Of a stretch of DNA of 64,000 nt, positions 27,621 to 53,073 are shown piece by piece. Source of the DNA: Pseudanabaena sp. PCC 6802 (GTDB taxonomy: Bacteria > Cyanobacteriota > Cyanobacteriia > Pseudanabaenales > Pseudanabaenaceae); assembly GCF_000332175.1 (NCBI RefSeq), contig NZ_KB235914.1, forward strand, positions 2,047,368 through 2,111,367, given 5' to 3'. The notes under the pieces are model-generated. The model worked only from the letters and a program-made list of their open reading frames with translations, was not told where the DNA came from and ran no database searches. Every line of letters begins with the position of its first letter. The stretch's first letter is position 1. A program made the translations under genes and the position numbers.

Positions 27621-27648
27621 TCAAATCCGACAACGTTGTCGGATTTGA
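27621..27648. repeat. 28-bp perfect palindrome, copy 1 (intergenic)
   Basis: The core CCGACAACGTTGTCGG is flanked by TCAAAT and ATTTGA, making a perfect 28-bp palindrome. It lies between the 27653 gene and the DUF1320 gene. Closely similar copies occur at 37013, 43317, 49612 and (variant) 52346. This is the only perfect copy outside coding sequence. Confidence 0.9.
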
Positions 27649-27652
27649 TTTT

Positions 27653-27838
27653 TTATTTACTCTCGACAGGTGCTGGTTCCTTGGACTTGACAGAAGGCTT
27701 AGTGTCAGGCTTTTCAGGCGGCACATCGAGCGTTCCAGACATGGTCATCGCTAATTCCTCAGGCATCTCGACTTTGTCGCCTGGTTGGTAGGTGCGTCCG
27801 TCGTAGCTCAGCCATCCCAATACCTTAAATTCTTTCAA
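27653..27838 (-). CDS. Small phage protein, paralogue of the adjacent 27849 gene
   Basis: A 61-residue protein with a small beta-like N-terminal domain (FKVLGWLSYDGRTYQPGDKVEMPEELA) and a Pro/Lys/Ser-rich tail. It has the same layout as the next gene upstream (NSPLYHDGKRYEPGGIVEM), so the two arose by tandem duplication. It lies between capsid and connector genes. Role unknown; possibly a head completion or decoration component. Confidence 0.6.
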   Translation of the reverse strand: MKEFKVLGWLSYDGRTYQPGDKVEMPEELAMTMSGTLDVPPEKPDTKPSVKSKEPAPVESK

Positions 27839-27848
27839 GCTTCACCTC

Positions 27849-28040
27849 CTATTTCGCTACAGGCTTATCTTCACTCGACGGCTTTTCGGCGGGCTTCGCC
27901 GGAGCCTTTTCGGGGATCTGGTCGCCCAGTACGTCCCGTGGCAATCCTTCAGCCAGGTCGGCGACCATCTCAACTATCCCACCCGGCTCGTACCGCTTCC
28001 CATCGTGATACAGGGGTGAATTTACTTTGTATTTCGGCAT
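27849..28040 (-). CDS. Small phage protein, paralogue of the adjacent 27653 gene
   Basis: A 63-residue protein of the same family as the following gene, with conserved DGKRYEPGG-x-VEM and a Pro/Ala/Lys-rich disordered tail. It starts directly after the capsid gene. Similar short proteins occur at this position in other Mu-like phages, but their function is not established. Confidence 0.6.
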   Translation of the reverse strand: MPKYKVNSPLYHDGKRYEPGGIVEMVADLAEGLPRDVLGDQIPEKAPAKPAEKPSSEDKPVAK

Positions 28041-28049
28041 TTCGGCCTC

Positions 28050-28985
28050 CTAAGCAACAGCATTTTGGATAAAGTAACCAGCCAGATTAGCAACAACCAC
28101 CTCTTTAACGGACTCGCCCACGCGGACGCGAATGCCGCCGTAGAGGCCGATATCTGGATCTTCGCGGGTACCAGCCACTTTTTTGCCGAACTGAGCCGTC
28201 ATCATAAATGACAGTCCCTTGCGGAAATTTGCCAAAGGATCGACTCGAAGCAGCCAAACATGCTTGCCCCAAATATAGCTGCGTGCAGCGGCTTGACCTT
28301 CTTTCGATGAGTCGTACCAGCCTTTACCAATCACGCAGCCCTTCAAGCCAAAGAAATCGGCTACCGCCTGCTGAGAAGCCATGCCATTTGTTACACCAGC
28401 ATTGCCGAATAAGGCGTTGATGATTTTGGGATGGGTGCGCAGCTTTGTCCAGGCTAGCTGTCCGGCTACCAAATGCGTAAAGGTTACTGGCGCAGAATCA
28501 AGCGCCGTGGTGATCGTGCCAACCGGGTCGCTATTGGTAAAATCCGAAAACTGTGAAGTGCCCGAAAGCGTGACGCGGTTGGTAGTCGGGAAAGTGGCAA
28601 GCGTTGACATGGTTGTGGCAACGCGCAACTCTCGATCGCGCATCACATCGTCGGTCAAGGCTTCTACTGCGTCGCTCGCCAAATCCACGCCCGGAACCTG
28701 ATTCATCACATCCTTGTAAGGAATTGGATCTTCAAGCCCGTAATCTTCTGTAGAAACGGTTTTCAGAGTACTGGTGTACTCGACCTCGTTTGGCCTGGAT
28801 GTGCGGCCCACCTTCGTATCTGGAATCCTGAATGCCTGGTCGATACTGTACTCGCGATAATCAAACTGGCTCTGTGGCACGATGATGCGCGGCGAAATTA
28901 TATCGGCGATATAGTCGTCGTTGCGATACGCGATCGCAATGCCGGACTCCCTTGGCTTAAACTCAAATGGCGCTTGTGGTGCCAT
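28050..28985 (-). CDS. Major capsid protein (Mu T-like)
   Basis: A 311-residue protein after the protease/scaffold and DUF2190 genes. It has an N-terminal FEFKPRESGIAIAYRNDDYIAD segment, then YREYSIDQAFRIPDTKVGR, and a C-terminal core with THPKIINALFGNAGV and VDPLANFRKGLSFMM. Length and pattern match the HK97-fold major heads of Mu-like phages. It forms the icosahedral shell and does not carry an obvious pro-domain; Mu T is also made with a separate scaffold. Confidence 0.85.
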   Translation of the reverse strand: MAPQAPFEFKPRESGIAIAYRNDDYIADIISPRIIVPQSQFDYREYSIDQAFRIPDTKVGRTSRPNEVEYTSTLKTVSTEDYGLEDPIPYKDVMNQVPGVDLASDAVEALTDDVMRDRELRVATTMSTLATFPTTNRVTLSGTSQFSDFTNSDPVGTITTALDSAPVTFTHLVAGQLAWTKLRTHPKIINALFGNAGVTNGMASQQAVADFFGLKGCVIGKGWYDSSKEGQAAARSYIWGKHVWLLRVDPLANFRKGLSFMMTAQFGKKVAGTREDPDIGLYGGIRVRVGESVKEVVVANLAGYFIQNAVA

Positions 28986-29000
28986 ACTTCCTCCCTATAA

Positions 29001-29381
29001 TTAACCCTGAACAGATCCTTTGGCCACATCGACAAATCCAATGTCGCCCAACACGCCGGAAACAAAAGCCGTGCCGATGATGCGATTGTTTGCGCCCGCA
29101 GCGGGCGCGGCGGCAACTGCTCGCCCCTGAGCGTCCGAGGTCAGCAGAGCGCCCCTGGTTATCGTGCCGCCATACTCAACCTTTTGCAGCCCGTTGAGAT
29201 AGCCATCCACCCGATCGCCGACCGCATCCGCGCCCAGGATTCCGGTAACGCCGATCAGGGCATCGGTAGCTGCCGTGGCCAAAACTACGGAGCCGTCAGC
29301 CGAGCCAAATTTAAAGATCCGATATCTGGGAATCGCGCCCTCGGCGGTGAAATTCTTGGCCAAACCCATTGATTGCGACAT
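29001..29381 (-). CDS. Capsid decoration protein, DUF2190 family
   Basis: A 126-residue beta-barrel-like protein. The pattern IFKFGSADGSVVLATAATDALIGVTG, EYGGTITRGALLTSDAQGRAVAA and NRIIGTAF is typical of DUF2190, small outer capsid decoration proteins. It lies between protease and major capsid genes, as in other Mu-like heads. Confidence 0.82.
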   Translation of the reverse strand: MSQSMGLAKNFTAEGAIPRYRIFKFGSADGSVVLATAATDALIGVTGILGADAVGDRVDGYLNGLQKVEYGGTITRGALLTSDAQGRAVAAAPAAGANNRIIGTAFVSGVLGDIGFVDVAKGSVQG

Positions 29382-29392
29382 AGTTCCTCGCC

Positions 29393-30463
29393 CTAAATTT
29401 TCAATTCTCTAGCGGCTTCGGCAAACGAGATTTCGATGCCTTCGGCTTTGCGCTTGTTTCTGTGCTCGGTGATTTTGCGGGCGATCGCTTCGGCATCGCT
29501 CGCATCCACCTGCTCCTGACCCGCACTGGATTCTTTGAACTCCACAATCGCCGCGCGGTTTTCCAAGGATTTCTTGAACAGATCCAGTGGCGACTCGGAT
29601 TTACGATCGCCGCCTTCGCCGAATTCCACGGGCTGCGAATCCGCCAGCGCCTGCATCGTCGCTAGCAGCGCTGGCTTTTCGCCAGGCGTAACCTTGCCTG
29701 CATTGCTTAGCTTGTCAAAGAATTCCGAGAATTCTATGGTTTTCAAGTCTTTCTCGCGTTTGGCGAGCGCCGCCGCCCACGCTTCAAGTTCTTGTTTTCT
29801 CGCGTCAAGCTCTTGTTTTCTTGCTTCTTCTTCGGCGGTCATTGTCACCTCGCTATAACTTTGCTCCATCACTCCTGTCATTGCCGCCTTCTCCTGTATG
29901 GGAGCGGCAATCATCGCCTCGATTAGATGTCGAGGCAAAAACTTCTCGGCGACTTCAACGCCCTTTTCTTCGATCATGAAGTCGCGCACGCCCGACATCG
30001 CCTGGGCGATCGCGCTATCCATCCAGCCACTAAAACTTATTTCCCCAAACTCAATGCAAACTTCCTCTTCCTCGCCCTCAGTAAAACTGGGCGACTCCAT
30101 ACCCTTGACTCCAGGAATCTGGACGGCAGCAAGGTGCCTGATTCCCCACTTACCTGGAACTGGGTTTGCTTTATCACTGGGGGCGTACAACCTGGCACTC
30201 AGCTTGGGATACCTACCTGCGTTTACAGCTTCGGCAAACTCGGTCACTACCCTGTGAGGCAGCGCGTAGAGCTTCTCACCGACCGCGAACACGGCTTTAA
30301 CCAAACCCTGGTTGGGCTTGCTTTCGTCGTGCCCGATCAGGATAGGCGCTTCGTGGCGATTGCGATCGTAGGTCGCCGCCATTTCCTGGATATCGGCGGC
30401 GGTGAACGTGCGTTCAACGCCCCGAGAATCTACGTGTTTTCCCGCCCTGATAATCTCCAGCAT
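29393..30463 (-). CDS. Mu gpI-like head maturation protease / scaffold
   Basis: A 356-residue protein. The N-terminal protease part starts with FTAADIQEMAATYDRNRHEAPILIGHDES (His in GHDES) and continues KLSARLYAPSDKANPVPGKWGIRHLAAVQIPG, the Mu gpI protease pattern. The C-terminal third is a Glu/Lys/Arg-rich coiled coil (EEARKQELDARKQELEAW), the scaffold portion. In Mu an internal start makes the scaffold alone; an ATG near residue 195-204 could do the same here. Confidence 0.88.
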   Translation of the reverse strand: MLEIIRAGKHVDSRGVERTFTAADIQEMAATYDRNRHEAPILIGHDESKPNQGLVKAVFAVGEKLYALPHRVVTEFAEAVNAGRYPKLSARLYAPSDKANPVPGKWGIRHLAAVQIPGVKGMESPSFTEGEEEEVCIEFGEISFSGWMDSAIAQAMSGVRDFMIEEKGVEVAEKFLPRHLIEAMIAAPIQEKAAMTGVMEQSYSEVTMTAEEEARKQELDARKQELEAWAAALAKREKDLKTIEFSEFFDKLSNAGKVTPGEKPALLATMQALADSQPVEFGEGGDRKSESPLDLFKKSLENRAAIVEFKESSAGQEQVDASDAEAIARKITEHRNKRKAEGIEISFAEAARELKI

Positions 30464-30502
30464 TTCTAGTCAGCAAAATCGGCGTAAATTATATATCGCT
30501 AA

Positions 30503-30823
30503 CTACCTTTCGGCTTTGACAGTGAAGTAGGCCTCCAGCAGACTTCCATTGCACTCGAACTTTAGCTCCACGCGATAGACCGCGCGATCCTGTAAATCCC
30601 TCAACAGCGGTAGCCTAGCCTTGGTTCCACTGAATTCAACCGTACCGCTCGGCATCACCGATGCGGTCATGTCGGCGTAAGCACCGCCATCTTCGCCGAC
30701 CAGAAAAACCTTTACCTGCGGGTTTTGCGGAGCGCTGCACCAATTCGCGCAATCCACCTCGTAGGCGATCGCCTCGTCAACCCCCTGCCTCTGCTGCCCC
30801 TCTCGCACTGTTCTGCTAGCCAC
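30503..30823 (-). CDS. Small structural protein, unknown
   Basis: A 106-residue beta-rich protein (NPQVKVFLVGEDGGAYADM, RVELKFECNGSLLEAYFTVK) that may form an Ig-like sandwich. It overlaps the repeat-protein gene by 8 bp. Function unknown; probably a virion accessory protein. Confidence 0.5.
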   Translation of the reverse strand: MASRTVREGQQRQGVDEAIAYEVDCANWCSAPQNPQVKVFLVGEDGGAYADMTASVMPSGTVEFSGTKARLPLLRDLQDRAVYRVELKFECNGSLLEAYFTVKAER

Positions 30824-32051
30824 CGCGTTCCTCCAGATTTAAGTTAAAATCTCGCTTCTCTAGCGATAGATCGAACAGGCGCTCGTCCAGCGTCAAGCCC
30901 TGCGACCTTGCATACAAGCTCAAAGCCACCACGGCGGCTATCTGCGTCCCGATCGAGCTATCGCTGACCAGCGCCAGGGCTTTGGCGAGCGATACTGCCG
31001 TCTCGTAACTGATGCCGCCCATAACACCAAACGCCAGCGCTTTCGCGACCTCGGTTACCGCACTTAAATCTGCTTGGGCTTCAGCGCCAAAGCCCGCCGC
31101 CATCGCCAGGTTTAGCGCTTCTTCCTGCGCGATCGTCACGCCCACCGACAACGCCAGTGTCACAGCTAGTGCCGTCCCCGCCTCCAGAGAGGTACTGGCG
31201 ACAGAAGTAAGTGCCAAGCTGCGTGCCAGGGCGGCAGCGCAAACCAGTGTGGCGGTATTGTCGAGGGTTATCCCCTCGGTACGCGCCAGGGCAAGCGTGG
31301 CATTTATGATGCCTGCAACCGAGAAATCGGTTGCAAACCCTTCGGTGCGCGAAAAGGCTTGCAATGCCCCCAGGTCGGCATTTGCGCTAGGCGCGACTGC
31401 GTTTGACTGCGCCAAATCCAATGCCGCCACAAAATCGATCGCCGCCGCCTCCGACATCCCCGCCGATCGCGCCAAACTCACCGCGCTATCAAGAACGCTT
31501 GCCGCACTAGCCGTTAAACCTTCGGTACGGGCTAGAGCGAGCAGCGTTACTAACGAGGCGATCGCCACAGTCCCGAAACCCTCGGTACGCGCCAGAGCCG
31601 CATCTACGCTTAAGTCGCTATTCACGATCCAGGTCGCTGCCAGCACCCTAGCCAGCGGCAGCGCACCATCAATCGTCATCCCCGCCGCGAAGCTTAAGCC
31701 AAGGGATTTGGCGATCGTCACGGAGCTATCGATCGCGCCACCAGCAACAGTGGCGAGCTGCAGCGTTCTAGCAAAAATCTGAGAGGCCGCATTCAGATCG
31801 GCAATATTGCCGCCGTCAAATCCCGCAGTTTTGCCAAACGCCATGCCTGCGTCCAGGACGGCATTGTTGAGAGTAGCAAAATTTTCGATCCTCTCAAACG
31901 CGGCAGCAACCTCGTAAATATTGGAATTGGAATCGTAGTACTGATCGGCCAGGATCGCCCCGATTCCAGGAAAAGGTGTACCTCGAAGCGGTGGTGCAAA
32001 CAAATTGTTTGCACCCGGTTTTCGGAATCTCAACTGCTTGTATACACCCAT
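30816..32051 (-). CDS. Repetitive phage protein, ~20-residue repeats (fibre-like)
   Basis: A 411-residue protein. From about residue 50 to 385 it is built of some 14 degenerate repeats of about 20-21 residues, consensus LARTEG-(F/L)-T-x-x-A-x-A-x-L-x-x-A-x-x. The clearest units are ALARTEGLTASAASVLDSA and ALARTEGITLDNTATLV. It ends with FDLSLEKRDFNLNLEERGG, a beta-type tail. Such repeats form long fibres or rods. It lies in the head module with two other unknown structural genes, so it may be a head or tail fibre. Confidence 0.6.
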   Translation of the reverse strand: MGVYKQLRFRKPGANNLFAPPLRGTPFPGIGAILADQYYDSNSNIYEVAAAFERIENFATLNNAVLDAGMAFGKTAGFDGGNIADLNAASQIFARTLQLATVAGGAIDSSVTIAKSLGLSFAAGMTIDGALPLARVLAATWIVNSDLSVDAALARTEGFGTVAIASLVTLLALARTEGLTASAASVLDSAVSLARSAGMSEAAAIDFVAALDLAQSNAVAPSANADLGALQAFSRTEGFATDFSVAGIINATLALARTEGITLDNTATLVCAAALARSLALTSVASTSLEAGTALAVTLALSVGVTIAQEEALNLAMAAGFGAEAQADLSAVTEVAKALAFGVMGGISYETAVSLAKALALVSDSSIGTQIAAVVALSLYARSQGLTLDERLFDLSLEKRDFNLNLEERGG

Positions 32052-33369: not shown

Positions 33370-33425
33370 GTGTTTTCCGTGTAAAGCGGGTAGATTTTAT
33401 ACGCTGCCCGGCGATGCGGCTCTCG

Positions 33426-33878: not shown

Positions 33879-33881
33879 AGG

Positions 33882-36812
33882 TCAATCGATCTCCCGTACA
33901 ACAAACTTGCCGTCCTCCTCAACCACCTGGTACCGATCGCCCAACTTCTTCTGCAAAGTTTCGGCCTGCTTGCGATTGGCATAGGGCTTGCCTACTTTGG
34001 ACAGCCAGCGATCGGCTTGCTTGGCGGTAAGCCCTGGAGGCAATTCCTTAGGCGGCGCAGGCAGCAAAGTCGGATCTTCCCCGTCTAGCTCCAAGCGAAA
34101 TCCGCCTCTTGCCGGTTTAAGCTTAAAACCAGGCAACTGATTGACAGCTTTTTCCGCTTCTTCTCTTTCCAAAAAAAGATAGCTTTGAATAGTTCTGATC
34201 GTGCGTCGAATATCCTCCCCACCTTTTCTCAGGATATTGCGCAGTGCAAACGGTGAAGCGCTTGACAGTTTACGCTTATCCAAGTATTCGTCCGCCGCGT
34301 CAACAGGCATTGCCTGAGATTTGTTGGGTTTTGGTTTACCAAGCTTGGAGGCAAATTTCTGGAATGCCGCGATCGCATCCTTGAGGTTGTTCTGCCCTTC
34401 TGGGGGTAGCACCTCTGGCGTAATCGCTTTAGGCTCCAGCTCAATCGCACTATAGCGATCGGTTCCACTCTTGGTTGGAGAGACAGGCACGATCTCTGCC
34501 CAGTCCTGACGTTTTAGCGCCCCTGGCGGAGTGATGGGGCCAATGAGCCGATCGGTTATTACCGCATTTTTATCCAGCTTGAGGTAATTAAAACCTTCCC
34601 GCCAGGCAACATTATCGGGATCGAAGCTGTCGGGGAATACTACCCCCTGCTTTTCTAGAAGCTCTTTCACCGCCTTGCACTGTTCTGGAGTCCAGAGATA
34701 CCCATCCGCCCTGGTAGGCTGGACGTTGAAAGTCCCAGCCGTCGCCCCTGTATTTTTGTTGATCCGAACGCGGTAATCGCCCAACCCTCGGCGAACGTTT
34801 ATCCCAAGCTGCGTGTACTCTTCTGGAGTAATCAGCCGCGTTTCTATCGGCTTTTTGACTGGCTTAGAGGGCTTTGTCCGTTTAGGCGCAGGAGCCTCAG
34901 GCTCCGACTTGCGAACCTCTTTAAGCAATTCTTCAGCATTTTCCACCTTAGGTTCTGACGGAACCCGCATAACGTTTGGCACTGGCTCAAGTTTTCCAGC
35001 CGCCTGAGTAGCGGGAACGCCATTAAAATCTTCTACTATCGCTCGGAAGACCTCCTTATTCGCCAGCCAGCTTTTGAGCAGGCCGCGATTGCCAAGCGCC
35101 GCTATCGAATCGTAGCGTCCGTGATAGATGCCCTTAAACAGCCGATCTTTATTGGCGCGCCTGGCAACTTTATGCAGGAGTTGATATTGGTCAATATCCG
35201 AAATATACCTACGATATTGCGTCTGTCCTAAATCGACTGGCGCAGAAATCCCGCCCAGCGTAATCACATTGTCAACTTCAATCTCCAGCGCTCGCAGTAT
35301 GCCTGCGATATCTTCTACCACCACCGCGCCTGCCGAGTGCCCCAAAAGGTTAACCTTGTTCGCGCCACGATCCAGGATCAGCCCGATTAGAGCCTTTGTC
35401 GATTCCGAGCTGAGTCCTAACGATTTTACGTGGACCTCAAGAATCCTTGACAGAAAGTTAGGCCCATCTTCAGTGACAATACTGTTAGCAGCCGCAACAA
35501 TCTCACCCTCTAGCCCTTGCTTCCGCAATCCCTCTGCCATTGAGGCAGAAGCCACAGCCCCTTCATCGCCAGCCCCACTCAAAACAACCGTTAAGGGCTT
35601 GTCTTTGACTTCAGTCGCCAGCAAGTCTCTGACCCTCTGCAATTTCTCCTCAGAAATTTCCGCGCGTATTTCGTCGGCAATTTTTTTATGTATCCCAGCC
35701 CGCCATGCCGCAGAAACCCTGGTAACCTCAGTTCCTATAATTTCTGGTGCTAGTGTCGCCGCTTTTATCCCAACCAAAACCGCGATCGCGCCAAACCCCA
35801 CCTTGCCCGCCAAATCGATAATGCCTTCCCTTTGCAGGTCGGACTGCATCCTGGACAGGATTTTCCGCCTTTTAAGGGCGCGATCGTCTTCTCTTTCTGT
35901 ATCGGTTTGGGGGACACAGCTATTCTCAAAATTATTGTCCGGCGCGATCCTGAATCTCTTGCCATCCACCTCAATCGTATCGCCCGGCCTGTAGCCCGTT
36001 TCCACCCGCAAGCCCCGTCGCTGCAAATCGCGATCGCTCAAACTAACCACGCCACAGTTGCACCCAAAGCCACAGGGCGGAAACATGCTATTCCACAAAG
36101 GATGGTCGGCGGGGAAGACCTTGCCGTCGAGCGCCAGGTGGACGGGACGGGGACTGCGGCTATTGCCGTGCCTCCACATCCATTTGTCGCGCTTCTCCAG
36201 TACCGCAGGGTCGGTCATTTGCTGGCAGCGGCCATCGGAGTAAGCACCCCTCAGGTTGGCTTGAAAGATAATGCCAGCCCGCCAATCGCGATCGCCTTTA
36301 TAGTTCCAGCCATACCTCGTGGCGATCGCGTCGAAATTTTTAGTAAATTCGGCGCGGCTCGTCCCTTCGGTCAGCGCCCGATCCACCTCTGCCCTGATGT
36401 CCCCCAAAACCGCAGCCTTGGCTCCAGCGACCGTAAAGTAGGCATCGTGTTCCGTTGCGGTCAAACTATCCCAGCGCCTGGTGGGGCGATTCTGCTTTTC
36501 GGAGAAATAATCGATCGCCTCCTGAAATGGCAGTAGCGCGTACTCCGCTTCGGCAAATTCGACTGTTTCACCATTAAGTACTAGCTGCTCGGATTCGTAC
36601 CAGCCAGCTAAAGCGCTAGCCGCCAGCGCGCTGGCAACCGAGCGATCCAGATCTTCAGAGTCCAGCTCGGGATAAATCTCAGCCAGGCGATCGTAGTATT
36701 CCTCCAGGTCGGCGCTTTCCCCCAGTAACTCCTTGCACTGCTCGAACCACCGCGCAAAGTAGGGTGCGGCAATTTCCCGCAGGCGATCGCTATAGCTATC
36801 AACTATATCCAT
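33882..36812 (-). CDS. Mu gpF-type head protein with internal alpha/beta-hydrolase segment
   Basis: A 976-residue protein, more than twice the usual length. Residues 1-310 are the Mu F minor head domain (NLRGAYSDGRCQQM, HLALDGKVFPADHPLW, then PPCGFGCNC). Residues about 400-575 look like a serine alpha/beta-hydrolase: strand PLTVVLSGAGDEG, nucleophile elbow NLLGHSAGAVVV with Ser493, strand NVITLGGISAPVD and a possible His564 in IYHGRYDSI. A Lys/Pro-rich linker (about 620-655) and a C-terminal unknown region follow. The hydrolase might modify host lipids after ejection; this is inference. It overlaps the portal stop by 14 bp. Confidence 0.8.
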   Translation of the reverse strand: MDIVDSYSDRLREIAAPYFARWFEQCKELLGESADLEEYYDRLAEIYPELDSEDLDRSVASALAASALAGWYESEQLVLNGETVEFAEAEYALLPFQEAIDYFSEKQNRPTRRWDSLTATEHDAYFTVAGAKAAVLGDIRAEVDRALTEGTSRAEFTKNFDAIATRYGWNYKGDRDWRAGIIFQANLRGAYSDGRCQQMTDPAVLEKRDKWMWRHGNSRSPRPVHLALDGKVFPADHPLWNSMFPPCGFGCNCGVVSLSDRDLQRRGLRVETGYRPGDTIEVDGKRFRIAPDNNFENSCVPQTDTEREDDRALKRRKILSRMQSDLQREGIIDLAGKVGFGAIAVLVGIKAATLAPEIIGTEVTRVSAAWRAGIHKKIADEIRAEISEEKLQRVRDLLATEVKDKPLTVVLSGAGDEGAVASASMAEGLRKQGLEGEIVAAANSIVTEDGPNFLSRILEVHVKSLGLSSESTKALIGLILDRGANKVNLLGHSAGAVVVEDIAGILRALEIEVDNVITLGGISAPVDLGQTQYRRYISDIDQYQLLHKVARRANKDRLFKGIYHGRYDSIAALGNRGLLKSWLANKEVFRAIVEDFNGVPATQAAGKLEPVPNVMRVPSEPKVENAEELLKEVRKSEPEAPAPKRTKPSKPVKKPIETRLITPEEYTQLGINVRRGLGDYRVRINKNTGATAGTFNVQPTRADGYLWTPEQCKAVKELLEKQGVVFPDSFDPDNVAWREGFNYLKLDKNAVITDRLIGPITPPGALKRQDWAEIVPVSPTKSGTDRYSAIELEPKAITPEVLPPEGQNNLKDAIAAFQKFASKLGKPKPNKSQAMPVDAADEYLDKRKLSSASPFALRNILRKGGEDIRRTIRTIQSYLFLEREEAEKAVNQLPGFKLKPARGGFRLELDGEDPTLLPAPPKELPPGLTAKQADRWLSKVGKPYANRKQAETLQKKLGDRYQVVEEDGKFVVREID

Positions 36813-38241
36813 TCAGTTTGCCCACCCGACTGGCGGCGATCGCGGCCTTGTCCATCAAGCCCTTAAACCGCTCCGTTGGCAGATCTGGGAACAGGCAATC
36901 CACCTTCTCCGCAAATTCCACTAAATCCTTAGACCCCGCCAATAGCTTCAGCGCATCGTTTTCCGCAAACTGAGGCGCGGTCGGAATTGCGCGATTGTCT
37001 GCGTTCGGCGGCAAATCCGACAACGTTGTCGGATTTGGAGCGGGCGGCTCGGGCTTAGGAATCTCCTCAAAATCCTCACCATAAATCTCGCGCACCGATT
37101 CCAAGCTGCGGCGAAAGCCCATGTCGAACAGGAGTTTGTCCGTAGCAGCGATAGAGGCCACGTCTTCCTCTTCCTCCGTTTTCCGCCACACCTGCGGCGG
37201 TTTCGCGTTAGGGAAATTCCAGAAGCACAGCCTTTTTGCCAGCACCTCGGTGTTGAAAGAGCCGCAGATCAGATCGGCATCGCCCTTCACCACCCGATCG
37301 CCCACATCCTGGTGTACCTGCGCCTGCGATAGTGAGGAGCCAGAGTCCGTGGTCATGGTTTGCGACAAGATAATCTTGCTAATCGCTTCGTTGCACTTGT
37401 CGTAGAGCGCGGCGTAGTCGGCGGTACCAGAACGACTCGCCTCGACCAACTCGATCAGGTAGCCCTGAGTCTTGGTGAAAGCAGCGCCAGCTCGGATTGA
37501 CTGCGCCAACTTCATGCCTTTCGCTTTCTCCTCCGGCCCCGCACCCACGGGCAGCTCCACCCCCGGTGTGGGTTGAGCGAATCTTTCTAGATAGGTGAGC
37601 CAATGCTGCAAATCTCCACGCTTAATCGCTACTGGCAGAGCCAGCCAATGCGCTAGCCCCAGGCCGTGCGGTTCGTCCGAGTTGTCCGCGCCCGTACAAA
37701 AGTGCCAACGGCGCGACCAGTGCAGTTCTTCGCCGTCGAACGCGTTCTCAAAAGTAATCAGGCGTGGCTCGAAATCTTGATTAAAGCCAAATCGACTGCG
37801 GTTGCGCACCCGAATACCACCTTTGAGCGGATCGAGAGTCCAGTAGCTGCCATCTGCCCGCAACATCAACTCGCCAAACGAGAATCCGTAAAAAGTGCCC
37901 CACAGCATTTCTTCCGTGATGCGATCGAAATCGATCGACGGCAACAGTTCGTCGCGCACCCAATCCGCCGCCTTGAGATCCTCGCTACTTTCGCCGCCAG
38001 CCACCACCTCGATCTCGCAGGACTTTACCGCCGAGATGCGCGACTGCATGCAGGCGTAGACCTGATCGTCGCGCTTGATCTCTTCGTAGTACTTCAGATC
38101 GCCGCCGCCCTTGATATTCAGGATCTCATCCTGACTTGGCAGCAATCCTGGATTCAAATAACCGCGCGTGATGTCCTTCGCGATCGGCGCAATCTCGACA
38201 TCGGCAAGCGGCTTCTTTTCAGCTTCGGTTAGATCCGCCAT
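36799..38241 (-). CDS. Portal protein, Mu gp29-like (DUF935)
   Basis: A 480-residue protein. DUF935 features include ITRGYLNPGLLPSQDEIL, a DDQVYACMQSRISAVKSCEIEV segment, YWTLDPLKGGIRVRN and the central GLGLAHWLALPVAIKRGDLQHWLTYLERFA. It forms the dodecameric DNA gate at the head vertex. A copy of the 24-bp palindrome lies in the C-terminal Pro-rich linker and is translated as NPTTLSD (about residue 402). Start one base after the terminase stop. Confidence 0.9.
   Translation of the reverse strand: MADLTEAEKKPLADVEIAPIAKDITRGYLNPGLLPSQDEILNIKGGGDLKYYEEIKRDDQVYACMQSRISAVKSCEIEVVAGGESSEDLKAADWVRDELLPSIDFDRITEEMLWGTFYGFSFGELMLRADGSYWTLDPLKGGIRVRNRSRFGFNQDFEPRLITFENAFDGEELHWSRRWHFCTGADNSDEPHGLGLAHWLALPVAIKRGDLQHWLTYLERFAQPTPGVELPVGAGPEEKAKGMKLAQSIRAGAAFTKTQGYLIELVEASRSGTADYAALYDKCNEAISKIILSQTMTTDSGSSLSQAQVHQDVGDRVVKGDADLICGSFNTEVLAKRLCFWNFPNAKPPQVWRKTEEEEDVASIAATDKLLFDMGFRRSLESVREIYGEDFEEIPKPEPPAPNPTTLSDLPPNADNRAIPTAPQFAENDALKLLAGSKDLVEFAEKVDCLFPDLPTERFKGLMDKAAIAASRVGKLNGYS
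37013..37036. repeat. Palindrome copy 2 (inside portal gene)
   Basis: A perfect 24-bp palindrome with core CCGACAACGTTGTCGG and AAAT/ATTT arms. It is in frame inside the portal gene in a Pro-rich linker and adds the peptide NPTTLSD. Confidence 0.9.
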
Positions 38242-42396: not shown

Positions 42397-42424
42397 GCTA
42401 TCTCCCCTCGGGTACGTCGTGTTT

Positions 42425-42625
42425 TCAATCAGTCTCTTCGCCATCATTTTCCTCCCTATCTTCTTCAAACTCTTGCAGCGCAGCCAGTGCCTCGATCATT
42501 GCCCCGAACTGTTCGCCTTCGCACAGGTAGTAGCCCGTGTCGAGATCCACCGAGTGCTCGACTGCGGCGATCGCACTGGCGGCGACATCGCACAGGTAAT
42601 CGCGCCAGGTCTTCACGGCTTCCAT
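42425..42625 (-). CDS. Small acidic phage protein, unknown
   Basis: A 66-residue protein (WRDYLCDVAASAIAAVEHSV), very acidic at its end (EFEEDREENDGEETD). It overlaps the methyltransferase stop by 13 bp. No family recognised. Confidence 0.45.
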   Translation of the reverse strand: MEAVKTWRDYLCDVAASAIAAVEHSVDLDTGYYLCEGEQFGAMIEALAALQEFEEDREENDGEETD

Positions 42626-43605
42626 ATAAACTCCTCAGCACTCTGCATGCCCGGAGCGCTAAGCCTGATATCAAAAATCGCATCGTAAATCTGGCGACGC
42701 GATTCTTCCTCGCCGTCGCGCAAGTAGGCGACGCGCCCGACAAGACGGTAAACCTTGTGAACGTAGGCTCCCATGAGGCCAAAGGCTTCCGCTCTTTGCT
42801 TGCTGGAAAAGAAGTCGAGCGGCAAAATAAACAGGCAGCGCCCGCTATGCTTTATCAAAGCCAGGCAGTGTGCCAAAATTGGCAGGGCTTTCGAGAAAGG
42901 CAAATTGCCGATCGCCACATCGTAAGTACAAAAATCCGTACAGGTCAAAATGTCGGCGTTACGCCACAAGTTCACTTTGTCCAGTAGTCCCTCCTCATAG
43001 CGGGCTTTATCAATTTCGTAGCAGACAGATCCTTCAGGTAGCCAGGCTGCAATCTGCCCCGTACCTGCGGTTGGCTCCAGTATCTTTTCCTCCTCCGGCT
43101 CTAGTAGAAGCGAAATTTCTTTAGCCAGCCAGCCTGGAGTCTCCCAATTGTCGGGATTCCAGTCATCTTTCTGTTCTGATTTTTTGGGCTTCAGCAGCGC
43201 TTTTGCCAGTTTCAGCGTCACCTCTCGATCTTGGGCTACCTCAATCGCGCTCTCCAGTACTTCATCGGGAGTACTGGGCGCGGTCAACAGGTAAAGTGCA
43301 GATGGCTGGATTTGCAAACCCGACAACGTTGTCGGATTTAGCCTTCTCGCCACCTGCATAAATCGCTGTGCCATGCGCTCGTCCCAGTCGAGTTCGCGTT
43401 TCATCCAGGCCAGAAACTCGCCGTGTTCGACCCGCTCCTTTACCTCCAGTAACATCGCGCCCACCGAGGCGATCGCGTAGGGAATGCGCTTCACCGTATT
43501 GCGGATTTCTTGGGCGCGATCGCGCAGGAAATCGCTGCTGTCGTCAACGACTTCAGACTCGACTACCTCCACTTCTCGCGCTTCTAGGGTCAAAATTTCC
43601 TCCAT
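42613..43605 (-). CDS. DUF3102-like domain fused to an N6-adenine-type methyltransferase
   Basis: A 330-residue protein. Residues about 25-140 match the DUF3102/ParB-like phage domain (GAMLLEVKERVEHGEFLAWM, IQPSALYLLTAPSTPDEV). Residues about 150-315 look like a gamma-type SAM methyltransferase, with motif I ILEPTAGTGQIA and catalytic-type motif IV AIGNLPFSKALP (an NPPF variant with Leu). The palindrome copy at 43317 lies within the first domain and encodes NPTTLSG. It may protect phage DNA or regulate early genes. The Leu in motif IV makes activity uncertain. Confidence 0.65.
   Translation of the reverse strand: MEEILTLEAREVEVVESEVVDDSSDFLRDRAQEIRNTVKRIPYAIASVGAMLLEVKERVEHGEFLAWMKRELDWDERMAQRFMQVARRLNPTTLSGLQIQPSALYLLTAPSTPDEVLESAIEVAQDREVTLKLAKALLKPKKSEQKDDWNPDNWETPGWLAKEISLLLEPEEEKILEPTAGTGQIAAWLPEGSVCYEIDKARYEEGLLDKVNLWRNADILTCTDFCTYDVAIGNLPFSKALPILAHCLALIKHSGRCLFILPLDFFSSKQRAEAFGLMGAYVHKVYRLVGRVAYLRDGEEESRRQIYDAIFDIRLSAPGMQSAEEFIWKP
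43317..43340. repeat. Palindrome copy 3 (inside DUF3102-methyltransferase gene)
   Basis: The core CCGACAACGTTGTCGG is preserved with slightly decayed arms (AACC / ATTT). It lies in frame and adds NPTTLSG to the protein between a helix (QRFMQVARRL) and the IQPSALYLL segment. Confidence 0.85.
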
Positions 43606-43608
43606 TCG

Positions 43609-44537: not shown

Positions 44538-44539
44538 GG

Positions 44540-44797: not shown

Positions 44798-44799
44798 GA

Positions 44800-47628: not shown

Positions 47629-47688
47629 ACTTACTCCTACTAATGACGTGTTGACCTCAAAGCCTCGGGAGCCTCACTCCCGAGGCTT

Positions 47689-49914
47689 TTAAACTGCTTT
47701 TTGCTGAATAATTTCGGTGGCACCCAGCCACTCAATAAACGCGGCATACTCCTCTTCTTGCCTGTCGTCGTCGCAATGAAATCGAGCCAAAGCGCGTCCC
47801 TCCGCCCACCGCAGACACAGCCGCGCCATCCCCCGATCCGCCTCGTCGCACGGCAAGCCCTTTTTCCAGGCGCGAAATACCTTTCGCAGTTCCGGCTTGC
47901 CCTCGACAATGTCTTGCGATGGCTTGCGTTCCGGTTCTTGCAAAAAGGCAACGTGTCGCGCCCTGGCTCCCTCGTCGTAGTGCGGCTCCGGCACCGGAGC
48001 CAGCGCCTCCAGAGTCCTGGCCGCCTCGTGCAGCGCCTCGGCTGCGTACTCTTCACTGCTTTTGGGTAGCGAGGTCAGCTTGCCGTTGCGCCGCTCGGCA
48101 GCGGACAACATCTCATCAACCACGTCCCCAACGTTAGCTTTCTTGGCAAGGGCCTTGAGGGCTTTCTTGCCCGCCTGGATGCGCTCTTTCTGCTTCCGCT
48201 TGGCGACAACCGCAGTCTTGGCGCGATCCATGCCCGTGCGTTCCGGGTTCTCGGCGACGCAGATAAATTTGCCGTCGCCGTCATATATATAGATGCGGCC
48301 CAGGTCGGCGGGGTCGAGACGCGCCTGCACTGGCTGCCCGATATAAGCCTCCAGCTCCACCGCAATAAACCAGCCGCCCTCGATCTGCACGCCGCGCTTC
48401 TGTACGGTGCGCGTACCGCCTTCCGCCATCAGCACGTCCAGCAGCCGCTCGTCACTGACCGTGCGAATCGCGCCTTGCGATCCGGTGTAGATCTCGAATG
48501 GGGTCTTGCCGCCATGCGCGGTTTTGGCTTCGTGGTGGTACTTATCGCACCAGCGATCCGCAAAGCTTTGCAGTTGCTCGCTGGTCATACCCACTTCCAC
48601 CACGCCGTCCTTTTGGTAAAGCCTCTCGCTAAAGGATTTTTGGGCGCGGAGTTCCTGGCGATCTGCCACGTTGTGCCCGGTATACCCAGGTAGCAACTCC
48701 AGCAAACCGCTCGAAAAAGTCCTAAAAAATCGCTCGACATAGGGCTTTTGCCAGGGACTGAACGGCGCGCACAGATCCCGTTCGATCCGCAAGTCATCCA
48801 GCACCCGCGTTATATGGCGGCTGGTATAGTCTTTACCGTTATCGGTCTTTATCGCTTCCGGTACGCCCCACGCCAGGATGGCGCGGCGCAAAAGCGCCAG
48901 GATCGCCACGGAGCGCGAGGTCTTCGTCACCAGCAGCATGGCGCGGCGACTAAACACGTCCACTACCGCCACCAGGTGGTAGCGACCGTCTGCGCACATC
49001 ACGTCGGCAGGCGTGGAGTCGAGCTGCCAGAGTTGATTCAGGCGATCGATCCCTTCGGAATAGCTGCCAAACGCGGCCATATGCTTGCTCTTAAACTTGT
49101 CGGGGTTACTCACCGCCGCGAATAGCTGGGCGTTCGTTCGCTTCCAGTCGCGCACCCACCGCGCTACGGTCGATACACTGGGCAGCGCCGAATCAGCAAA
49201 CCGCGCGTGCATCGCCTCATGGATCTGGACGGCACGGCAGTGCGGGTATTTCGCCACCATGCCCAGCGTGAAATTTCTCAGCTCTTCCTCGGTGTCTATT
49301 ACTTTGCCAGCCCGTCCCCTATTCTTAGGCTTTAGTCCCTCAAATCCTTCGGTTTCGAGGCGCTTTTGCCAGTTTTTCAGGGTAGAGCGACTCAGTTTAG
49401 GCTCCTGCGTCCGTATCCACTGCGGTAGTTCGACTTCGCCGTTATTGTATTTGACGGCGAAATTTTCCTCGCATCTAAGCCTGCTCAAGCCTTCTAGCTT
49501 GCAAAAGCCCGTTTGTTCGGCGCGATCGTAAGCCTTCAGGATCTCGTACCGCGCTTCGGCGGTACGGTCTTTTTTGCTGGCTTTGGGATCTGGTGGTTCG
49601 ATTTCAAATCCGACAACGTTGTCGGATTTGGGAAACTCCGGCGCTACGGCAGGCGGCGTAGCGATCGGAGCTTGCAAACTAACTTCCAACAAGGAGTCAT
49701 CGCCTGCAAACTTGTCGGGGAAGCGCGCGCGGGCTGCTTCCTCAAATTCTGGTGTCCAGTAGCGATCGGGCAACTGGTACTCTTTGCCGCCGCCGCGTCC
49801 AATGCGATCGCGCGATCGCCAGGATTCGCGTATAGCCCTTTCCCGAACCCTGCGATCCGTGGAAGGCAGACCGATCAAACCCGCAAGTTCCAAGGAAGAA
49901 AAATATCCCTTCAT
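47689..49914 (-). CDS. MuA-like DDE transposase
   Basis: A 741-residue transposase. The N-terminal Mu-type DNA-binding domain is at about 1-50 (FSSLELAGLIGLPSTDRRVR). A second HTH at about 172-195 has LSRSTLKNWQKRLE. The rve catalytic core has D299 (WQLDSTP), D358 (KTDNGKDY) and E394 (KPYVERFFRTF). A C-terminal beta-barrel (QPVQARLDPADLGRIYIYDG) and a MuB-interaction tail follow. The palindrome at 49612 is translated as SDNVVGF (97-103) in a linker. ATGA overlap with the RHH gene. Confidence 0.93.
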   Translation of the reverse strand: MKGYFSSLELAGLIGLPSTDRRVRERAIRESWRSRDRIGRGGGKEYQLPDRYWTPEFEEAARARFPDKFAGDDSLLEVSLQAPIATPPAVAPEFPKSDNVVGFEIEPPDPKASKKDRTAEARYEILKAYDRAEQTGFCKLEGLSRLRCEENFAVKYNNGEVELPQWIRTQEPKLSRSTLKNWQKRLETEGFEGLKPKNRGRAGKVIDTEEELRNFTLGMVAKYPHCRAVQIHEAMHARFADSALPSVSTVARWVRDWKRTNAQLFAAVSNPDKFKSKHMAAFGSYSEGIDRLNQLWQLDSTPADVMCADGRYHLVAVVDVFSRRAMLLVTKTSRSVAILALLRRAILAWGVPEAIKTDNGKDYTSRHITRVLDDLRIERDLCAPFSPWQKPYVERFFRTFSSGLLELLPGYTGHNVADRQELRAQKSFSERLYQKDGVVEVGMTSEQLQSFADRWCDKYHHEAKTAHGGKTPFEIYTGSQGAIRTVSDERLLDVLMAEGGTRTVQKRGVQIEGGWFIAVELEAYIGQPVQARLDPADLGRIYIYDGDGKFICVAENPERTGMDRAKTAVVAKRKQKERIQAGKKALKALAKKANVGDVVDEMLSAAERRNGKLTSLPKSSEEYAAEALHEAARTLEALAPVPEPHYDEGARARHVAFLQEPERKPSQDIVEGKPELRKVFRAWKKGLPCDEADRGMARLCLRWAEGRALARFHCDDDRQEEEYAAFIEWLGATEIIQQKAV
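49612..49635. repeat. Palindrome copy 4 (inside transposase gene)
   Basis: A perfect palindrome with core CCGACAACGTTGTCGG and AAAT/ATTT arms. It is read in a different frame from the portal and methyltransferase copies (SDNVVGF instead of NPTTLSD) and falls in a linker between the first DNA-binding domain and the rest of the transposase. Confidence 0.9.
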
Positions 49915-50075: not shown

Positions 50076-50122
50076 GTGCGGTGTATCGTACAGTATACAT
50101 TCTTTGTACAGTACACCGCACA
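50075..50122. promoter_or_regulatory. Early operator: 11-bp perfect inverted repeat
   Basis: TGTGCGGTGTA (50075-50085) and TACACCGCACA (50112-50122) flank a 26-bp centre that contains GTACAGTATACA and TTGTACAGTACAC, further half-site-like sequences. It overlaps the RHH gene start and a TATACAT -10-like element. A likely switch region for the repressor and RHH protein. Confidence 0.65.
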
Positions 50123-50204
50123 AACTCGTCAAGTAGGCGGCTATTGAAATTTACTTCAGGTGTACTCTATGCTATACATTAGAAATGTAAGGTGGAATAT
50201 TGCT

Positions 50205-50531
50205 ATGAACGCTCCAGTTATCACAACCGAAGGGAAGCGGCTCCTGGGCAAACTCCTCAAGGAGTCCAGGGAGGGGCTGGGACTATCCTTGGACAATCTT
50301 GTCTTACTGATCGAAAAACAAACGGGAAGAACCTTAAGCAAATCAACAATTAGCGGGCTAGAACGCGGCAACGCTAAGCCAGAGTGGGACACCCTATCTA
50401 TACTCGCATCAGCCAGGTATATAAAAAAAGAAACGGGATCGCCCTATGCAACCGCCGAACTATTTGAGATAGCCTGCCAATCTCAAGAAGATCGGGCAGC
50501 AAACTTTCGCCACGCGATCGGAGCAGCCTAA
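50205..50531 (+). CDS. Phage repressor, XRE-type HTH
   Basis: A 108-residue protein from ATG 50205 (AAGGTGG upstream). The HTH domain spans residues about 10-75: LLGKLLKESREGLGLSLDNL, then LSKSTISGLERGNAKPEWDT. It is divergent from the RHH-transposase operon and is probably the lysogeny repressor. It has no visible protease-cleavage domain, so induction by RecA is not suggested. Its stop codon starts the CGTCCGAG repeat array. Confidence 0.7.
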   Translation: MNAPVITTEGKRLLGKLLKESREGLGLSLDNLVLLIEKQTGRTLSKSTISGLERGNAKPEWDTLSILASARYIKKETGSPYATAELFEIACQSQEDRAANFRHAIGAA

Positions 50532-50698
50532 CGTCCGAGATCGTCCGAGTTAACGTCCGAGATCGTCCGAGTTAACGTCCGAGATCGTCCGAGTTAACGT
50601 CCGAGATCGTCCGAGATCGTCCGAGTTAACGTCCGAGATCGATCCAGTTAGCGTCCGAGTTAGCGTCCGAGTTAGCGTCCGAGTTAGCGTCCGAGTTA
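50532..50698. repeat. Tandem array of CGTCCGAG octamers
   Basis: Fourteen exact CGTCCGAG octamers lie directly after the repressor stop, plus one degenerate copy. The first ten alternate with ATC- (10-bp step) and TTAA- (12-bp step) spacers; the last four follow TTAG at a 12-bp step. Spacing close to a DNA turn puts the octamers on one face, as in iterons or operator arrays. No ORF of note. Confidence 0.9.
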
Positions 50699-50761
50699 GC
50701 GCTACAGAAAGCCAGAACATGGGTAAGCTCAATAGCACAATAGGGAATAGGAAATAAGCAC

Positions 50762-51154
50762 ATGGACTTTTTCAACGATCTCGCCAAAAATATTGAATCA
50801 GCCGCCAATCAAGCAGGTGAAGCGCTAAACCAGGCAGGCAAACTAATACAAGAAAACGCTAGCGGATTAGGCGAACAAGCAGGCAAGGCGTTGGAAGAAG
50901 CCAATAAAGTTGTCTCAGAAAAAGTAGACCCTGCCGCATTGGGTGCAGTTGCAGCAGGTGGCACGGCAGGCGCTGGAATATCTGCCCTTGTTGGCGGCAT
51001 GGGCTTAGCCATAGGCGGCACAGCCGTTGCAATTGGCATGGCTCCCGTAGCGATTGCGGGTGCAGTAGTTGGTTTAGGCGCATACGGGGTTAGCAAAGCT
51101 CTCGCCCCCCAAAATACAGGCGATGCAGACAACACGGACGCACAAGATAGCTAA
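50762..51154 (+). CDS. Glycine-zipper protein, cargo gene
   Basis: A 130-residue protein. The N-terminal ~55 residues form an amphipathic helix (AANQAGEALNQAGKLIQENA). Residues about 60-112 are a glycine-zipper hydrophobic region with GxxxG spacing (AAGGTAGAGISALVGGMGLA, then IAGAVVGLGAYGV). The end is acidic. Such proteins insert in membranes or form pores. Its TAA overlaps the ATG of the HNH gene by one base, so the two are made together. Function unknown. Confidence 0.6.
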   Translation: MDFFNDLAKNIESAANQAGEALNQAGKLIQENASGLGEQAGKALEEANKVVSEKVDPAALGAVAAGGTAGAGISALVGGMGLAIGGTAVAIGMAPVAIAGAVVGLGAYGVSKALAPQNTGDADNTDAQDS

Positions 51155-51492
51155 TGCCTAAATCCAAGCCCAATGCCCTACAAAAGCTTGTACGCGGAGC
51201 TATTCGCAGCTATCTTGCCCCAAAAAGAAAGAAGAAAAGAGTGGTAGTCGATCGACTCAAGCCTGCACAACCTTCACAGCCCCAGAAAACTACTCGCTCT
51301 ATCTCCCTAACAACCAGATACCTGATCCTTAAGCGAGACAACCGTCAATGCGTCATTTGCGGCAGGCAGCCTCCAGCCGTGAAGCTAGAAATAGACCACA
51401 TAATTCCATACTCAAAAGGAGGCAGCAACCATCCCAGCAACCTCCAAACCCTTTGCTTCGACTGCAATCGAGGCAAAGGAGCCAATCCCTAG
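51154..51492 (+). CDS. HNH endonuclease
   Basis: A 112-residue protein. A basic N-terminal part (PKSKPNALQKLVRGAIRSYL, PKRKKKR) is followed by an HNH domain: CVICG, LEIDHIIPYSKGGSNHPSNL and LQTLCFDCNRGKG, i.e. CxxC zinc ligands with the catalytic DH. HNH genes beside terminases aid packaging, but this one is at the opposite end with a membrane-type partner, so defence or exclusion is possible. This is inference. Confidence 0.8.
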   Translation: MPKSKPNALQKLVRGAIRSYLAPKRKKKRVVVDRLKPAQPSQPQKTTRSISLTTRYLILKRDNRQCVICGRQPPAVKLEIDHIIPYSKGGSNHPSNLQTLCFDCNRGKGANP

Positions 51493-51665
51493 CAACTCAT
51501 AGGCCAGTAGCTCGTAGTAGCTCGTAGCTCGTAGGGTGGGCGATCGCCTCACAGTATCTAATCACCTTGCAGATCCCGTACAGATCCCGCAATCAGCTCC
51601 ATCTCACGCAACTATCACGGCGATCTTTGCCGCACAAAAGCAATCCCCAGCCTTTTTTAGGCCGA

Positions 51666-51699
51666 GGATATACAATATGTCCTACCAATAAGACAAGGA
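51666..51699 (+). promoter_or_regulatory. KilA-N promoter block with inverted repeat
   Basis: GGATATACAATATGTC (51666-51681) is identical to 13074-13089 at the other prophage end. TATGTCC and GGACATA form an inverted repeat downstream, a likely operator. The homology continues to the start codon of the following gene. Confidence 0.6.
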
Positions 51700-51705
51700 C
51701 ATATT

Positions 51706-52239
51706 ATGACAGCATTTCCGGCTCACACACCCAACGGCTTTGCCATTAGACCTCGTCCAGGCGACGGGTATTTCGACGGCACCCTGATGTGCAAAGCCAA
51801 CGGCAAACTAATAGCTGACTACCTGCGCCTAGATTCCACCAAAGCTTACCTAGCAGCGCTTTCCTGTAATATGGGAATTCCCATATCACTTTTGATCGAA
51901 ACCAGGAAAGGCAACACCAAGAAATACGAGCAGGGTACTTGGGTGCACCCGCAGGTCGCGATCCACCTCGGTCAGTGGTGTAACCCCGAATTTGCGGTTT
52001 GGGTAACAAATCTAGTCTTTGACTGGCTCCAAGGTCAGCAGCCACTTTCACGAAAAGCGCTAGCCGACGACCTTGCGGAAGACATTTGCCAGCTTGGAGG
52101 GCATCTAGAAAGAGCCCAAGGCACTATCCACGCCCTGAATGAAGCGGTCGACTTTGGCATGTTTAGTGACGTGGCAGACATACTTCAAGCGCGGATCGAC
52201 AAAGCATACAAGATCGCAAAAGCTATCCTCTCAGCCTAA
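51706..52239 (+). CDS. KilA-N domain protein
   Basis: A 177-residue protein with a KilA-N domain at about residues 20-115: LDSTKAYLAALS, KGNTKKYEQGTWVHPQVAIHL and CNPEFAVWVTNLVFDWL. A helical C-terminal part follows (LAEDICQLGGHLERAQGT). KilA-N domains bind DNA and occur in phage proteins, sometimes with anti-repressor or host-killing roles. It is the outermost gene at the phage left end, flanked by CCAGTAGCTCGTA direct repeats. Confidence 0.8.
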   Translation: MTAFPAHTPNGFAIRPRPGDGYFDGTLMCKANGKLIADYLRLDSTKAYLAALSCNMGIPISLLIETRKGNTKKYEQGTWVHPQVAIHLGQWCNPEFAVWVTNLVFDWLQGQQPLSRKALADDLAEDICQLGGHLERAQGTIHALNEAVDFGMFSDVADILQARIDKAYKIAKAILSA

Positions 52240-52305
52240 TCCAGTAGCTCGTATGGCGGGTGTCAAATAACCGTCAAATAAAGCATCTCCCGCCCACCAG
52301 CACTT

Positions 52306-53073
52306 TCACCCCATTTCGCGAAGCGTGGGCGTAGGCTCAGTCACATAAAACCGATAACGTTGTCGGTTTATGCAACAATCAAACGACCTCCCAGAGCCAC
52401 TCAAAAAACCAAACCCGCCCCCAGAGCCAGTTTGATTTTTACATTTAACCCCCCAAAAAAATTCCAAAAATCCGCTTATTGAGAATAGCTTTTTTGCTCG
52501 CGATTTACACCGATCCAACAATGGCTGCTTTTTTTTCATTTTTACCGTCGAAGTGGGATCTGCCTCAAAGCCTCTCATCCCAATCAATCCCAGCAAATCC
52601 CGGTTGGTACCGCCGATCCAATAATGGTTGCGTGCATACACTCCGACTGCCGCTGCCGATAAGATTTCCACATCGAAGCGATAGCCCAATTGGCAGAGTC
52701 CGTGCAAAACTTTGGTAAGTCCTCCTGTGTAGAAAGCGCCTTTGACGTTCTCCCAAATGACAAATCTGGGCTTTGCTTCCTCGATAACTCGGAGCATCTC
52801 GAACCAGAGTCCTGAGCGATCGCCTGTAATTCCTGCACGTTTGCCAGCGAGGCTGAGGTCTTGGCAGGGAGATCCACCCGTGATGAGGTCAAATTGGTTT
52901 GGCTTGGCATGGAAAGTCCTGATATCTCTGTGGATGGGGATGGTGGGGAAGTTTTTTCGTAAAACATGGCAGCAATAGGGGTTGATTTCGACAAATTGTG
53001 CGGTCTCAATGCCGAGCGATTGGGCGGCAAGGCTAACGCCACCGATGCCAGAGAATAAGTCGAGGTATTTCAT
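52306..53073 (-). CDS. C5-cytosine DNA methyltransferase, 3' end replaced by prophage end
   Basis: A 255-codon frame. The first 210 codons are methyltransferase: motif I DLFSGIGGVSLA, motif IV TGGSPCQDLS with the catalytic Cys, motif VI VIWENVKG and a weak motif VIII ARNHYWIGG. The last 45 codons are read from the prophage terminus, so the target-recognition domain and motifs IX-X are missing. It is almost certainly inactive. Last gene of a tightly coupled operon (4-bp overlap upstream). Confidence 0.85.
   Translation of the reverse strand: MKYLDLFSGIGGVSLAAQSLGIETAQFVEINPYCCHVLRKNFPTIPIHRDIRTFHAKPNQFDLITGGSPCQDLSLAGKRAGITGDRSGLWFEMLRVIEEAKPRFVIWENVKGAFYTGGLTKVLHGLCQLGYRFDVEILSAAAVGVYARNHYWIGGTNRDLLGLIGMRGFEADPTSTVKMKKKQPLLDRCKSRAKKLFSISGFLEFFWGVKCKNQTGSGGGFGFLSGSGRSFDCCINRQRYRFYVTEPTPTLREMG
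52346..52372. repeat. Variant palindrome near prophage terminus
   Basis: ATAAAACCGATAACGTTGTC plus a following GGTTTAT form an imperfect palindrome with the same centre as the four internal copies. It is intergenic, adjacent to the terminal transposase sites. Confidence 0.7.
52373..52443 (-). repeat. Prophage terminus at window right (phage left end), transposase sites
   Basis: The terminal GTTTGATTTTTACA (52430-52443) reads inward as TGTAAAAATCAAAC. Further sites are AAAAAACCAAAC (52403-52414) and CAACAATCAAAC (52373-52384), which begins at position 60 from the end. The flanking 5 bp are TTTAA, one mismatch from TATAA at the other end. Confidence 0.75.

Follow-up and report, generated by a model that had tools for sequence, protein, structure and literature searches.

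Why should a prophage carry one and the same palindrome in a gap between genes and within the coding sequences of several unrelated proteins? This question is raised by a Mu-like prophage of the cyanobacterium Pseudanabaena sp. PCC 6802, which lies in the 64-kb stretch of contig NZ_KB235914.1 that we analysed as a whole and refer to as the window. An earlier note on this DNA had proposed either a mobile palindromic element, like the Rickettsia palindromic elements (RPEs), or a binding site for a phage or host protein spread along the prophage. We consider it probable, at roughly 80%, that what binds the palindromes is a helix-turn-helix (HTH) protein of the DUF3102 family which the prophage itself encodes (42613-43605, minus strand). 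Four lines of evidence lead to this reading: conservation of the site throughout the family, compensatory change between its two arms, the matching of further sites in an element to the site of its own gene, and covariation between a residue of the protein and a base of the palindrome.

The repeated palindrome is real, with exact copies of the 16-mer CCGACAACGTTGTCGG at 27627, 37017, 43320 and 49610 and a one-mismatch copy at 52351, all within a few bases of the positions first reported. At up to three mismatches the window holds these five sites against 0.13 expected, and none of 100 shuffles reached five (maximum 1). Around the 16-mer, the symmetry extends to different lengths. A palindrome scan places a perfect palindrome of 30 bp (27620-27649) in an intergenic gap, 15-45 bp upstream of a Mu gp36-like gene, and perfect palindromes of 26 bp lie within the portal gene (37012-37037), encoding NPTTLSDL in a variable linker past the Portal_Mu domain, and within the transposase gene (49605-49630), encoding SDNVVGF in a linker past the N-terminal Mu DNA-binding domain. 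The copy in the DUF3102 gene encodes NPTTLSGL; it is perfect over 16 bp (43320-43335) and has 11 of 12 pairs over 24 bp (43316-43339). The degenerate copy TAAAACCGATAACGTTGTCGGTTTAT (52346-52371) is close to the 3' end of an open reading frame (ORF) whose C5-cytosine methylase domain is incomplete. The exact copies use two reading frames, one in the portal and DUF3102 genes (NPTTLS..) and one in the transposase, and the 52346 variant uses the third; the view that DNA and not peptide is conserved was correct.

We searched the whole host genome for the palindrome, as had been proposed, and found six exact 16-mers, all within C5:2,074,994-2,140,730. Four are in the Mu-like prophage and two in a decayed prophage about 22-29 kb past the window end, with zero exact copies outside both prophage regions; allowing two mismatches genome-wide added only the 52351 variant. 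Among 57 other genomes we found a single copy of the 16-mer, in one genome. Across 84,980 genomes the exact 16-mer matched 93 stretches, about the number that 257 billion bases would yield by chance, and the informative matches of that search were only the extended AAAT..ATTT forms.

The gene at 42613-43605 had been called a methyltransferase with the palindrome in a linker. Its product does have a methyltransferase-like part (residues 141-297, phrog_799), but this is fused to a DUF3102 domain (PF11300, residues 39-92; 34.9 bits against a gathering cut-off of 24.4, 2.1e-8), and the palindrome, instead of falling in a linker of the methyltransferase, lies at the end of the DUF3102 HTH part. The exact 16-mer is found in elements of Oscillospiraceae and Flavonifractor as well, where it again lies in a DUF3102 gene, at the corresponding position, and encodes NPTTLSDL. 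Relaxing the pattern to a fixed AAATCCG/CGGATTTG and a central CG gave 66 stretches of viral contigs, and the 69 distinct sites at this stage comprised 36 within DUF3102 genes at the homologous position and 33 elsewhere, with inner bases variable and complementarity mostly kept. Because loci selected by their DNA are biased, DUF3102 genes were re-collected by protein search. In the tblastn set, the site was present in 10 of 10 viral relatives of the DUF3102 protein of locus L011, and PF11300 was matched in 6 of 61 genomes from a single Firmicutes family; at the level of phyla, 21 of 292 genomes from the window's own phylum and 14 of 398 from the Firmicutes had matches. The 136 matched ORFs gave 80 distinct complete domains after removal of fragments and duplicates. 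In 60 of these 80 domains the highest-scoring 24-bp palindrome has its centre at hidden Markov model (HMM) column 71, and in 64 within columns 67-73; at least 9 of 12 pairs are formed in 61 of the 64, a score that occurs elsewhere in just 2 of the 80. The window gene (L229), with 11 of 12 pairs centred at column 71, fits this class of 24-26 bp in-gene palindromes. Sequence comparison shows the site in the DUF3102 gene to be ancestral, with its codon position fixed and no insertion.

The in-gene palindromes are highly divergent in sequence (for example AAATTTCCAAGCGCTTGGAAATTT, AGATTCGAATCCGGATTCGAATCT and CAAATCGGTAAATTTTACCGATTTG), and their arms have changed in concert. For 47 distinct even-length sites, arm pairing is 0.883 with the site's own arm and 0.589 with swapped arms (maximum of 1000 swaps 0.649), and in one compensatory example CCG..GCG has become CGG..GCC, the change in the Ala codon being synonymous.

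To relate the protein to its site, we correlated differences in protein columns with differences in half-sites over 53 rows, holding overall protein distance constant and excluding columns 69-74, which are encoded by the palindrome itself. The top correlated columns were 57 (0.51), 53, 52, 106 and 56, four of which fall within the putative recognition helix. HMM column 57 classifies base pair 9 in 88 of 90 rows (the best other column not encoded by the palindrome, 0.756): Arg goes with C, that is a C:G pair, in 35 of 35 rows and Asn with A (A:T) in 32 of 32, while Lys, His and Tyr are mostly found with A. The rule applies to palindromes of even length, which make up the 90 rows; those of odd length, mostly cyanobacterial, have a different register. 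Among 35 rows unused in finding the rule, Arg went with C in 8 of 8 and Asn with A in 16 of 16, and among 53 representatives below 80% identity column 57 was right in 51 (Fisher 5e-12, uncorrected for descent). A tree built without columns 50-76 shows 19 changes between Arg and non-Arg and 20 between C and non-C. Arg-G and Asn-A are textbook contacts. The window protein, with Arg at column 57 and ACA, agrees with the rule, as does the helix Arg of a DUF3102-like gene of Variovorax (L113, related to KS10 gp15), which has two copies of the same core near the gene start, at a different place and in a different frame.

Sites outside the DUF3102 gene also tend to match the gene of their own element. 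In 45 loci of 20 kb, seven extra sites of the own type were found in five loci at up to three mismatches, and palindromes from foreign loci gave none in 1,578 trials. When 34 extra sites were placed on a simple ORF map, many lay in short gaps, often right past a stop codon or before a start.

We infer binding of the palindrome by DUF3102 from the covariation; dimerisation and an effect on transcription are proposed. Each half of the palindrome would be read by one subunit of a DUF3102 dimer, with the recognition-helix residue at column 57 (Arg here) specifying base pair 9 (C:G here). Since the DUF3102 gene itself contains a site whose codon position is fixed, gene and site would travel and change together; the other copies are distributed over the element, some between genes in short gaps and some in linkers that tolerate them. 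Binding to the internal site would most likely limit the protein's own transcription, and binding to the other sites may silence or structure the prophage in the manner of a stoperator or a parS/KorB-type site; repression of transcription, a block to elongation and organisation of the DNA are all candidate effects. The second proposal of the earlier note, a phage-protein site spread along the prophage, is thereby strongly supported, with the DUF3102 HTH protein as the candidate binder.

Several observations weigh against this reading. The best palindrome lies away from the usual position in 16 of the 80 domains, and 40 of the 45 loci are without an extra site. The excess of own sites is gone at looser matching (foreign palindromes gave 5 matches at four mismatches, and at up to five there were 7 own against 17 foreign in the 1,578 trials). 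Several extra sites lie between convergent genes and are thus a poor fit to a plain promoter operator, and in one phage (L157/G093) the extra site mismatches the palindrome of its own gene. Arrays of many different palindromes occur in three loci (L086, L158 and L181), and by the rule one protein would not bind them all. Six of the eight Arg test rows had been collected with the exact 16-mer, which fixes C at pair 9 beforehand. Branch support in the tree is low, with only five independent pairs on well-supported branches; every one of them goes the way the rule predicts (p 0.0625). The shuffle and covariation counts are not independent, as many rows are paralogues from few genomes. Between genes, DUF3102-rich Firmicutes also have longer palindromes that contain such cores, with TGTCCC/GGGACA arms around centres that vary; 6 of 19 of these differ by at most two bases from an in-gene palindrome in their own genome, a figure of little weight because some of the six fit a different genome just as closely and the lists of in-gene palindromes have gaps. 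The arrays, the L157/G093 mismatch and the TGTCCC/GGGACA palindromes are not fully explained by DUF3102 binding.

The alternative that survives best, though still improbable, is a mobile palindrome of the RPE or REP (repetitive extragenic palindrome) kind that inserts itself into genes and gaps. It would account for a 24-26 bp word at unrelated spots in a single prophage, for the arrays in L086 and L158, and for the cores that in some Firmicutes are embedded in the longer TGTCCC/GGGACA palindromes just described. However, the position and frame in DUF3102 are fixed across phyla, with the encoded peptide belonging to the domain, and no copy lies in the host chromosome outside prophages. A clean insertion is not visible in the transposase, where the nearest homologue (47% identical; one homologue) has a linker of near-equal length without the site. 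The portal site sits in a hypervariable linker, and this copy may have arisen by insertion. Insertion also gives no reason to expect the HTH residue to covary with the site. The RPE-like origin that the earlier note had raised as one option is not supported. That note had set two patterns against its own proposal, palindromes conserved in relatives as coding sequence without insertion and the lack of any excess of copies; the first is what we see in DUF3102 relatives, whereas the copies clearly exceed chance (5 versus 0.13).

An mRNA hairpin acting in autoregulation, processing or frameshifting is less likely again, although the stems are perfect, in-gene and transcribed. Mismatches at pairs 1-10 are about equally G-T (12) and A-C (10), so that G-U on the coding strand is not clearly above A-C, and the symmetry is often continuous through the centre without a loop; together these favour duplex DNA over RNA. 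A hairpin also sits poorly with extra copies between convergent genes and with covariation with the recognition helix. We give slightly less credence still to a different protein that travels with DUF3102 and reads the palindrome: no computed result favours it, the covariation picks out the DUF3102 recognition helix, and few neighbours are common across loci. Least credible of all is a constraint on the peptide alone, in which the protein needs NPxxLxDL and palindromy is a by-product of the codons; the encoded segment is indeed conserved among phage DUF3102 proteins, but the palindrome is destroyed by codon shuffling (in 44 of 80 domains at most 10 of 200 synonymous shuffles match the observed score), is kept with very different peptides (NFQALGNL, DSNPDSNL, KSVNFTDL), and recurs as the same DNA word in another frame or outside genes.

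Read as DUF3102 binding sites, the palindromes resemble several known systems in part. The L5 and BPs mycobacteriophages carry stoperators, repressor sites along the temperate phage genome in short gaps; sites spread through a temperate element are common to both, but stoperators of L5 are short, asymmetric and oriented, whereas here the sites are palindromes and one lies in the gene of the proposed binder. RPEs likewise place a palindrome in frame within unrelated genes, but they are longer insertions, and at the DUF3102 site there is no insertion and in the transposase none is visible. REP elements with their RAYT transposases and the small dispersed repeats of cyanobacteria are also short dispersed palindromes, at times in intergenic arrays; they differ from the six exact copies found in prophages only, the fixed in-gene position and the specificity linked to an HTH residue, and the high chromosomal copy number of a REP/RAYT-like repeat was not seen, with six exact copies in just two prophage regions. 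ParB-parS shares an HTH protein, a palindromic site and one site in the gene of the binder (putative for DUF3102), but parS is near-invariant, whereas the DUF3102 site varies freely between genes and changes along with the protein. In Bacillus subtilis, as one published account describes, parS-359 sits inside parB, the gene of its own binder (PMC4442127).

The structure predicted for the window domain has modest quality (predicted local distance difference test 67); P1 ParB on DNA gives the best VIA match (1zx4; Z 4.8, 44 residues, root-mean-square deviation 2.2), below the trust level; a second model, from a single sequence without an alignment, gave weak matches to Raf1 (the best, Z 6.8), DnaA domain IV and ParB (4.2). 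The match to P1 ParB is suggestive only. Foldseek returned nothing at E < 0.001 and a sequence search of the PDB nothing at E < 0.1, and Pfam found DUF3102 alone, with no N-terminal CTP-binding domain of ParB, in the DUF3102 proteins of the window and of L011.

The setting of the DUF3102 gene is a Mu-like prophage with a transposase, AAA ATPase, GemA, portal, terminase, gp36 and major head protein. Its portal gene (36799-38241; Portal_Mu, 2.5e-85) and transposase gene (47689-49914; Mu-transpos_C and rve), both correctly named in the earlier note, and its gp36-like gene (27152-27604, with its start at 27604, 15 bp from the palindrome) are on the minus strand, and the same prophage is present in an IMG/VR contig (L010, L012, L021) with an identical set of four sites. 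The ORF at 52306-53073, which looks truncated, matches a C5 cytosine methylase over its first 145 residues only and has the degenerate palindrome near its end. An unrelated, lone perfect palindrome of 23 bp, GGTGCAAACAAATTGTTTGCACC, lies in the prophage at 31993-32015. HIP1 (GCGATCGC), a cyanobacterial signature that suggests a host of that phylum, has 76 copies in the window against 2.3 expected. The decayed second prophage past the window (G000:C5:2,123,000-2,143,000) retains patches 85-95% identical to the window prophage, its two exact palindromes, and several near-identical repeats of 0.9-1.2 kb, likely insertion sequences, one of which is also found at window positions 55755-56954.

Against named phages, we found no match by megablast of the prophage or by tblastn of the window and L011 DUF3102 proteins. 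In the KS10 paper (PMC2628397), BcepMu gp10 is named as matching a conserved hypothetical protein; BcepMu gp10 and KS10 gp15 form a Mu-like phage protein family that is kin to the Variovorax DUF3102-like protein. No palindrome of at least 16 bp was found in the 19 kb of KS10 examined, and the 21 kb of TJ1 examined gave one unrelated 17-bp palindrome. Four other cyanobacterial Mu-like prophages (G174, G180, G200 and G227) showed no DUF3102 in the stretches scanned and no repeated palindrome. The repeated palindrome of another (G438:C34), 25 bp of CTATCTGGCGGAATCCGCCAGATAG and variants in six copies over 50 kb, in gaps or short ORFs, was set aside, as the repeat is spread across the entire contig and has the look of a host repeat.

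Elsewhere in the family, five Firmicutes genomes (G630, G655, G704, G795 and G835) each have at least 10 DUF3102 genes with many different in-gene palindromes and few common neighbours. In the neighbourhoods of 40 Firmicutes loci, no transposase or mobile-element gene is common to most, and the commonest neighbours occur in 12 and 11 loci. Two arrays, at L158:2290-2680 and L086:6955-7390, consist of about 8-10 palindromes each with constant CAAAT/ATTTG feet and different stems; by eye, the former is upstream of a BRO-N-like protein with a DUF3102-like HTH and the latter upstream of an integrase-like gene. Remnants of DUF3102 genes at L404:2172-2623 (two frames, split near columns 67-69) and L403:2281-2305 (by eye, only the part downstream of the palindrome retained) break at or beside the palindrome, which suggests that it is a point of instability.

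DUF3102 is mentioned by three papers of the literature searched but is absent from their titles and abstracts, and searches on in-gene sites, stoperators and recognition-helix coevolution gave nothing describing a DUF3102 palindrome, within the limits of those searches. The family is essentially undescribed, and judging from sequence its members appear to contain their binding site within the gene that encodes them, at a set place. It is a possibility that we hold tentatively that DUF3102 genes are self-contained address modules, each with a reader and its DNA word within the reader's own codons, the two changing together to give many orthogonal pairs per genome, with elements marking themselves by copies of the word and the code readable from single genes. 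If this is true, reader and word, the two halves of a lock and key, would both be legible in one gene. Binding specificity would then be readable from sequence for many members of the family, which would amount to a naturally occurring series of candidate repressor-operator pairs orthogonal to one another, and the residues flanking the palindrome centre, which change together, would offer a testable case of a constraint on DNA shaping the sequence of a protein.

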